Of a DNA stretch of 64,000 nt, positions 9,956 through 22,257 are shown piece after piece. Under the pieces are notes generated by a model. That model searched no databases. It saw only the letters and a list, made by a program, of their open reading frames with translations, and had not been told where the DNA came from. The translations under genes and the position numbers were made by a program. Source of the DNA: Ornithobacterium rhinotracheale (lineage in GTDB: Bacteria > Bacteroidota > Bacteroidia > Flavobacteriales > Weeksellaceae); assembly GCF_004088395.1 (NCBI RefSeq), contig NZ_CP035107.1, positions 248,001-312,000 of the forward strand, read 5' to 3'. The first letter of the stretch is position 1. Every line of letters begins with the position of its first letter.

Positions 9956-10678
9956 TTATTTACTTGCTACCACTTGATTACTATATCTTAAACTCAATTT
10001 ATTGTAAGGCATTTCTGCATTTTTTTCAATGAATTCTTGGTGAAAAACTTTGAAATTTCTCAACTTTCGGTCTAGATTTTCTAGGTTGCCGAGGTCTAAA
10101 ACATAGGTTCCATCATCAACTAACAAAATAAAGGAATTTTCCCCATTCTTTTGCATTCCGATGATGTGTTTTTTCAACAAATTATCATCATTGATTAGAT
10201 GCGTTAAATGTACGATTTTTTTATATTCCTCGGGCAAAATTTTTCCATTAATCATCAGAACTTTTGCAGAGAAGTCCTTGCATAATGGGATTTGTGTGGC
10301 ATCTTTGGTGATGTAGAATTCCTTATTTCCATTCTTCACCCGCGCCACGGGGATTTCTTGCTCAATTTCCGTGTGCAGAACGCCGTTATTCTCCAAATAT
10401 ACCTGCGCCCTCTTTATGTGGGGATTTGCATTAAGCCTATCCTCCATCGCCTTGATTGAGATACGCTGCGCCTGCATTTTTGGGTAATCGGGGTGGGTGC
10501 TTTTTAGGGTGTTTTCTACCACTTTGTCATTGATGAAATAAATGCCCTCCGAATAGTCAATCTTATCATCAATTTTCATCAATTCCCTTGTTTCGTACAA
10601 GTGATTGGAAAAAGACAATAGCGAGACTAGCACAATCAATCCCAAAAGTATTTTAAGTAAAATCCATTTACGCTTCAT
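9956..10678 (-). CDS. ftsQ: Cell division protein FtsQ/DivIB-like
   Basis: Bitopic divisome protein of 240 residues that links early and late division proteins. It has one N-terminal transmembrane helix (about 7-25, LLKILLGLIVLVSLLSF) and a periplasmic part with a POTRA-like segment (about 30-110). Sequence similarity to E. coli FtsQ is weak; the assignment rests on topology, size and position between murC and ftsA. The start overlaps the end of murC by 11 bp, so translation is probably coupled. Confidence 0.88.
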   Translation of the reverse strand: MKRKWILLKILLGLIVLVSLLSFSNHLYETRELMKIDDKIDYSEGIYFINDKVVENTLKSTHPDYPKMQAQRISIKAMEDRLNANPHIKRAQVYLENNGVLHTEIEQEIPVARVKNGNKEFYITKDATQIPLCKDFSAKVLMINGKILPEEYKKIVHLTHLINDDNLLKKHIIGMQKNGENSFILLVDDGTYVLDLGNLENLDRKLRNFKVFHQEFIEKNAEMPYNKLSLRYSNQVVASK

Positions 10679-20611: not shown

Positions 20612-21509
20612 AATTTCTAATTCCAATTCTCAATTTAGCGCTTCTTGCACGCGGATTCTCTTCAATTTCCTCTGGGCTAGCAAGGATTACCTTGGATTGT
20701 ATAGGCCTAAACGGTGCGTGCCAATTGCCGTACAAATCGCGCTCTGGCTCTCCTTGAAACATTCCTTTTTTTATGTAATTTTTAACTAATCTATCTTCCA
20801 AAGAATGGTAGGAGATTACAACTAGCCTGCCATCTGGTTTAATGATATCTGCCATTTGCAAGAGCATATCTTCTAGTGCTTTTAATTCATCATTCACCTC
20901 AATTCTCAACGCTTGAAATAATTGAGCTAAAAGCTTATTTTCCTTGTGTTTTGGGATTACGGCTGAAAGCACTTCTTTTAACTCTTGCGTGGTATTGATA
21001 GGGGTGTTTTTTCTTGCGGTGGCGATAATATTCGCCCATCTAGCCCCTTGCTTAATTTCGCCATAATTCTTTAAAATAATGCCTAAATCCTTTTCTGGAT
21101 ATTGGTTTACTACTTCCCAAGCCGATTTAGATTGGTTTTGGTTCATGCGCATATCCAGTCTGCCCTCAAATCGGGTAGAGAAACCACGCGTTGCGGTGTC
21201 AAACTGGTGCGATGAAACGCCTAAATCTGCCAAAACGCCATCTACTTGTGTGATTCCGTGAAACTTTAATTGATTTTTAATAAATCTAAAATTAGATAAA
21301 ATCAACTGAAAACGAGAATCTTGTATTTGGTTTTTAGCCGTATCTAAATCTTGGTCGAAGGCGAAAAGCTTTCCGTTTTCATTTAATTTTTTCAGAATTC
21401 CGTGCGAGTGTCCTCCGCCTCCAAAGGTGCAGTCTACATACACACCTCCAGGCGTTTGAACTAGTGCGTCTACGCACTCATCAAAAAGTACAGGTTTATG
21501 GTAATTCAT
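20604..21509 (-). CDS. rsmH: 16S rRNA (cytosine(1402)-N4)-methyltransferase
   Basis: SAM-dependent enzyme (formerly MraW) that N4-methylates C1402 in the ribosomal P site. It starts with YHKPVLFDE and has the SAM-binding VDCTFGGGGHS (about 25-35), the GVLADLGVSSHQFD motif and the C-terminal PRARSAKLRIG. Length 301 residues is normal. It overlaps mraZ by 14 bp and ftsL by 8 bp, implying translational coupling. Confidence 0.97.
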   Translation of the reverse strand: MNYHKPVLFDECVDALVQTPGGVYVDCTFGGGGHSHGILKKLNENGKLFAFDQDLDTAKNQIQDSRFQLILSNFRFIKNQLKFHGITQVDGVLADLGVSSHQFDTATRGFSTRFEGRLDMRMNQNQSKSAWEVVNQYPEKDLGIILKNYGEIKQGARWANIIATARKNTPINTTQELKEVLSAVIPKHKENKLLAQLFQALRIEVNDELKALEDMLLQMADIIKPDGRLVVISYHSLEDRLVKNYIKKGMFQGEPERDLYGNWHAPFRPIQSKVILASPEEIEENPRARSAKLRIGIRNYG

Positions 21510-21960
21510 CTCCTAAGCTGCCCATTACTTCTTCTGCTAATGCACCAAAATCTACTTCCTCATTGTTGATTTCAGCTTCATACAAATCTTTGTTCCAAAT
21601 CTCGATAATGTAGATGTAAGAGGAGAGCACTACATTCTTTTCAATCTTTGCGTAATTCACTAAGTCTTTGGCAATCTGCAATCTGCCATTGCTGTCGAGC
21701 TCCACGGGTTTGGCTCCAGCGGTGAATCGGCGAATGAAATCACTGTTTTTTTTCACAAAAGGATTAAGTTTACCCATTTTTTCCATCACGCGGTTCCATT
21801 CATCTATGGGGTGAAGCTCAAGACAAGGTTTGAACACAGAACGCTTTAAGATAAATCCCTTTTCTAGGACATCTTCTAGCTGCTTGCGCAGGTCCATAGG
21901 AAGGGCTAGACGCCCCTTGGCATCTACCTTACATTCATATGAACCGACTAGACTTGTCAT
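21496..21960 (-). CDS. mraZ: MraZ transcriptional regulator
   Basis: First gene of the dcw cluster: a 154-residue protein with two SpoVT/AbrB-like halves, each carrying the DxxxR motif (DAKGRLALP near 13-21 and DSNGRLQI near 98-105). MraZ assembles into rings and in E. coli and Mycoplasma regulates its own operon by binding spaced GTGG/TGGG-type repeats. Three such boxes with a 10-bp period lie upstream at 22008-22032, so autoregulation is likely here (inference). Confidence 0.96.
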   Translation of the reverse strand: MTSLVGSYECKVDAKGRLALPMDLRKQLEDVLEKGFILKRSVFKPCLELHPIDEWNRVMEKMGKLNPFVKKNSDFIRRFTAGAKPVELDSNGRLQIAKDLVNYAKIEKNVVLSSYIYIIEIWNKDLYEAEINNEEVDFGALAEEVMGSLGDELP

Positions 21961-21979
21961 TACCTAAATAAATTTTTTC

Positions 21980-21987
21980 CAAAAGTA
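21980..21987 (-). promoter_or_regulatory. Putative -7 element of the dcw promoter
   Basis: TACTTTTG on the minus strand fits TAnnTTTG, 19 nt upstream of the mraZ ATG. No TTG was found at the expected -33 position, which is occupied by the GTGG boxes. Confidence 0.45.
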
Positions 21988-22007
21988 AGAACTTTCTTCC
22001 AAAATGC

Positions 22008-22032
22008 GCCACTTTTTACCACAAAATCCCAC
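22008..22032 (-). promoter_or_regulatory. Triple GTGG repeat, candidate MraZ operator
   Basis: On the minus strand three boxes GTGGG, GTGGT and GTGGC (plus-strand 22028-22032, 22018-22022, 22008-22012) are separated by exactly 5 nt. The first and third are preceded by AAA. This matches the spaced direct repeats bound by MraZ in other phyla. They lie just upstream of the putative -7 element, suited to repression. Confidence 0.65.
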
Positions 22033-22257
22033 TTTTGTTGAAAACTTTTGCTTCTCTTATTTTTGATGGCTATGATTTTGATTGTTAATGTTTGGTGAAT
22101 TTTAATTTAAAAGTAAAACACACCCTTAGGGCATAATTTGATGAGATGCCTAGTGGGGGTGCGCAGTGGGAGTTTCTGTGGGGTGAAAATTTTGGTTAAA
22201 AAGAAAAAAAATAATTATATAATTTAGATTATGTGTGATTAATTGCATATAATGCCT

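Follow-up and report, generated by a model that had tools for sequence, protein, structure and literature searches.

The three GTGG boxes that precede mraZ in the window, the whole 64-kb stretch of DNA analyzed here, are very probably the operator of MraZ. The initial annotation had taken them for a candidate MraZ operator, and this interpretation is strongly supported by comparison across Bacteroidota. The putative operator adds a further case to a known kind, and its position in the promoter is specific to the lineage. If this is true, the first protein of the dcw cluster would turn down its own cluster. MraZ is among the most conserved bacterial regulators and, to our knowledge, MraZ operators have been characterized in a few groups only. 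Our literature search found no papers on MraZ sites, and no MraZ binding or expression data, in Bacteroidota.

Three boxes in 10-bp register upstream of mraZ

The mraZ gene of the window is followed by rsmH and then by murein and division genes down to about position 9956. The PDB relatives of its product are MraZ proteins (including 9qlr, 9qlg and 9sx6). The protein carries DAKGR and DSNGR and thus keeps the DxxxR motif, the arginine of which is needed for DNA binding by E. coli MraZ. The MraZ of 80/80 named relatives likewise keeps both motifs, as D.KGR (domain 1) and a further D..GR.

Upstream of this gene, the sequence reads GTGG-N6-GTGG-N6-GTGG on the minus strand at 22009-22032, 49 bp 5' of the mraZ start codon. 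The elements of the locus, as read from the sequence, are the following:

22029..22032, minus strand: GTGG box 1 of the putative MraZ operator, AAAGTGGG, in a conserved array
22019..22022, minus strand: GTGG box 2, TTTGTGGT, 10 bp from box 1
22009..22012, minus strand: GTGG box 3, AAAGTGGC, 10 bp from box 2 (about -37 to -34 in the promoter)
21999..22002, minus strand: TTGG, a fourth, degenerate position that continues the 10-bp register
21980..21987, minus strand: -7 element TACTTTTG (TAnnTTTG) of the mraZ promoter, matching the Bacteroidota -7 consensus
21496..21960, minus strand: mraZ, first gene of the dcw cluster, with two MraZ domains (PF02381; Pfam 3e-22, two stretches)

Across the array the minus strand is AAAAGTGGGATTTTGTGGTAAAAAGTGGCGC, and the layout down to the start codon is TTTTCAACA-AAA-GTGG-GATTTT-GTGG-TAAAAA-GTGG-CGCATT-TTGG-...-TACTTTTG-...-ATG. 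The geometry given in the initial annotation is accurate: the boxes stand in exact 10-bp register on the minus strand (22032-22029, 22022-22019 and 22012-22009), and the 5-nt spacers are right as counted between 5-mers, which amounts to 6 nt between GTGG cores. The array also lies, as described there, upstream of mraZ (start at 21960) and beside a TAnnTTTG -7 element (21987-21980). In F. psychrophilum, this element occupies positions -12 to -5 (PMC9723704). If the same holds here, the predicted mraZ start site is near 21975 and the boxes lie at about -57 to -34; the array had been said to sit at the place of -33, and this is right because box 3 then falls at about -37 to -34.

One exact triplet occurs in the 64-kb window against about 0.005 expected, and the copy before mraZ is the only one in the 2.25-Mb genome. 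A chance origin of the triplet was rejected on these window and genome counts together with the expectation from shuffled sequences given below.

Conservation across Bacteroidota

The initial annotation had named a lack of the triplet in close relatives as grounds for refutation, and the comparison did not refute the proposal. Judged by eye, nearly all of 80 named relatives, with loci of the Flavobacteriaceae type, carry a 10-bp-period GTGG triplet before mraZ, and the triplet is near-invariant while the flanking sequence is variable. We then surveyed 140 genomes plus the window, with one region per genus and a few genera represented more than once. At least two boxes in register precede mraZ in 57/60 Flavobacteriales, 8/16 members of other orders of the class and 46/65 members of the rest of the phylum, for which dinucleotide shuffles predict 0.07, 0.05 and 0.30 doublets, respectively (less than 0.5 in total). 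Exact triplets, for which the shuffles predict zero, are found in 43/60, 6/16 and 12/65. Outside Flavobacteriales, 54/81 mraZ promoters thus have a doublet and 27/81 are without an exact box pair. Within the family of the window, two of the genera sampled keep just two good boxes.

Pairs of GTGG at 10 bp occur in 111/141 regions, while the other distances between 4 and 19 score 0-5; the 10-bp pairs are far commoner on the mraZ strand than on the opposite strand. The listing for 148 genomes of the order comprises 93 exact triplets: 72 have a listed mraZ match no more than 700 bp away, 17 are in genomes without a listed mraZ place and 4 are elsewhere in genomes with one. Conversely, the 500 bp upstream of rsmH in genomes that lack mraZ contain no doublet (0/15), at loci where rsmH may not head an operon. 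One sampled family (f38) is without mraZ and retains rsmH, and 13/247 near-complete genomes have no mraZ match. Some arrays (families f27, f43 and f49) look like GTGGGGAAAAGTGGGGAATTTTCCCAC, in which an inverted box comes after two direct ones.

These data bear on a first alternative, in which the GG tracts of the boxes form a DNA G-quadruplex and are not a protein site. G-quadruplex-forming tracts have been reported upstream of mraZ in S. aureus, with similar motifs in other bacteria (PMC11796246), and the array of the window does have four GG tracts if TTGG is included. However, what is conserved is GTGG at a strict 10-bp period with A/T around it, and not the length of G-runs or short loops. 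In Flavobacteriales, many of the arrays take the form GTGGTAAAAT, with only two Gs per tract and 8-nt loops, and the site was not found upstream of rsmH in the 15 genomes without mraZ. We therefore consider a G-quadruplex very unlikely.

Comparison with known MraZ operators

The boxes had further been likened to known MraZ sites as sharing a design of spaced direct repeats, and the likeness turns out to be close: the E. coli core is identical, and the Mollicutes site is equal in period and core. In E. coli K-12 the sequence before mraZ is GTGGGAAATTGTGGGGCAAAGTGG, with the same GTGG-N6-GTGG-N6-GTGG core reading toward mraZ. The E. coli boxes begin 7 nt past a -10-like element, whereas those of the window lie upstream of the -7 element, and the base after GTGG is G in E. 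coli but G, T and C in the window. In Mollicutes, MraZ binds (AAAGTGKN3)3 (PMC5282649). This site shares with the window three direct repeats, the GTG core, the preceding AAA and the 10-bp period; it differs in that K is G in the window, in that box 2 of the window has TTT for AAA, and in promoter type. Since these boxes recur throughout Bacteroidota and stand in an identical pattern in the E. coli promoter, the predicted MraZ control circuit is ancient.

The average Flavobacteriales box is AAAGTGGTA, and the rest of the phylum prefers GTGGG. The core is thus followed mostly by T in Flavobacteriales, and by G in the E. coli boxes as well as elsewhere in the phylum, so the specificity may have drifted.

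The array keeps its place beside mraZ and moves relative to the promoter

Among the arrays of Flavobacteriales and the other orders of the class, 61/65 have TAnnTTT[GA] at most 30 nt downstream (background 0.02-0.03 per 30 nt), and just 3/65 are preceded by a canonical -35/-10 promoter. In the rest of the phylum no array is followed by a -7 element (0/46), and 34/46 are shortly preceded by TTGA[CT]-N16-19-T[AG]nnnT, with a gap of 0 or mostly 8-12 nt; the corresponding promoter-to-array gap in E. coli is 7 nt. It follows from these two arrangements that the putative operator is retained while its place shifts, from the neighborhood of +1 to about -25 to -57. Depending on the type of promoter, it lies either downstream of -10 or across -33, and the multi-box design is the same across Bacteroidota. 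This suggests that selection acts on the spacing of the boxes beside mraZ and not on a single blocking position. The last full box is 10-12 nt from the -7 element in 46 sequences and 20-22 nt in 8. In the window this distance is 21 nt, one helical turn beyond the usual 10-12, and TTGG fills the vacated slot, which is the place of the last box in typical Flavobacteriales.

The boxes could instead bind another factor linked to mraZ, or act as a -33 element for the primary sigma factor, with no involvement of MraZ. Binding of MraZ to the boxes is a prediction from sequence, and box 3 overlaps the -33 position in the window. Against this, the boxes stay beside mraZ as their place relative to the promoter shifts between lineages, the E. 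coli mraZ promoter has the same core pattern, MraZ of Mollicutes binds such repeats (PMC5282649), and the rsmH loci of genomes lacking mraZ did not show the site (0/15). Such a factor is thus highly improbable. An RNA element in the mraZ leader, which would fit the boxes of E. coli and much of the rest of the phylum since they lie downstream of -10 and within the predicted transcript, can be dismissed almost entirely: in 61/65 arrays of Flavobacteriales and the other orders of the class, the -7 element comes after the boxes, which would not be transcribed from it and are conserved nonetheless.

With MraZ as the ligand, the mechanism would be as follows. The 10-bp period puts the three boxes on one face of the helix, where adjacent subunits of the MraZ ring could take one box each. 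Bound MraZ would cover about -57 to -34 and, since this overlaps the -33 region, would keep the primary sigma factor off the promoter. Repression of mraZ and the downstream dcw genes would result, closing a negative feedback loop.

A DnaA-box-like element adjoins the array in Flavobacteriales

A second conserved element lies beside the putative operator in Flavobacteriales and is seemingly linked to replication:

22036..22044, minus strand: DnaA-box-like element TTTTCAACA, adjoining the array; position-locked in Flavobacteriales

The sequence TTAT[CT]AACA or a variant is present 5' of the first box in 49/57 Flavobacteriales arrays, against a background of 0.03 per 42 bp, and in 0/46 arrays of the rest of the phylum. 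Its distance to the first box is fixed, at 11 bp in 30 sequences and 21 bp in 15, and the three nearest relatives of the window (L033-L035) have an identical TTTTCAACA. The DnaA box TTATCCACA itself fills the slot in 4/49 of the Flavobacteriales elements, and TTTTCAACA of the window agrees with it at 7/9 letters. In nearly all elements, including that of the window, position 6 is A and not C, and TTTTCAACA does not fit the DnaA-box consensus TTWTNCACA.

Tandem pairs of the motif spaced by 20 bp number 47 in 148 genomes, against 9 for a reversed control pattern, and include the following:

Upstream of hup (HU), 28 pairs: L336, L338, L342, L356, L359-L361, L363, L364, L366, L367, L371-L375, L377, L381-L386, L389-L393
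Upstream of dnaB, 6 pairs: L337, L357, L365, L368-L370
Near nrdB, 1 pair: L376
Near glutamine synthetase genes, 5 pairs, family f6: L378-L380, L387, L388

Several of the dnaB copies contain TTATCCACA or TTATTCACA, both of which fit the DnaA box. In the genome to which the window belongs, neither hup nor dnaB has a 20-bp-spaced pair. A replication origin built from TTAT[CT]AACA clusters was also sought, and none was recognized around dnaA or among the tandem-pair matches. Domain IV of the flavobacterial DnaA proteins examined (L348-L353) reads [RK]DHATV, against RDHTTV in E. coli (1j1v) and another solved DnaA; the change to DHATV could accompany a changed DnaA box.

A tentative reading of these patterns, which we regard as possible rather than probable, is that the dcw promoter of Flavobacteriales is a two-input switch, made of the MraZ operator and a position-locked DnaA-type box shared with hup, dnaB and nrdB. 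DnaA would then recognize an altered box, TTAT[CT]AACA, and replication initiation and division-gene expression would be coupled through one array. The lack of pairs at hup and dnaB in the window's genome and the misfit of TTTTCAACA to the strict consensus speak against a changed DnaA box. The adjoining element opens a possible influence of DnaA on cell division to direct tests in laboratory strains such as Flavobacterium johnsoniae.

A candidate second site facing engB

The window also contains a cluster of GTGGG on the other strand:

22153..22183, plus strand: three GTGGG spaced by 13 and 12 bp, outside the 10-bp register; oriented toward the divergent alpha/beta-hydrolase and engB genes

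The G-runs near 22153-22183 on this strand number four if GGG near 22129 is included. From its sequence, the cluster is possibly a decayed second site or an unrelated one. In several genomes of family f7 (e.g., G042, G074, G111, G116 and G145), an opposite-strand doublet in 10-bp register faces a divergent engB (ysxC), which we recognized by eye from a 12-residue segment common to the engB product of the window. Profundicola (L035, near 2185) has AAAAGTGGGATTTTGTGG facing a divergent hydrolase-engB pair. A second in-register GTGG doublet of this kind, upstream of engB or of hydrolase-engB, suggests that in some lineages the GTPase gene is under MraZ control as well.
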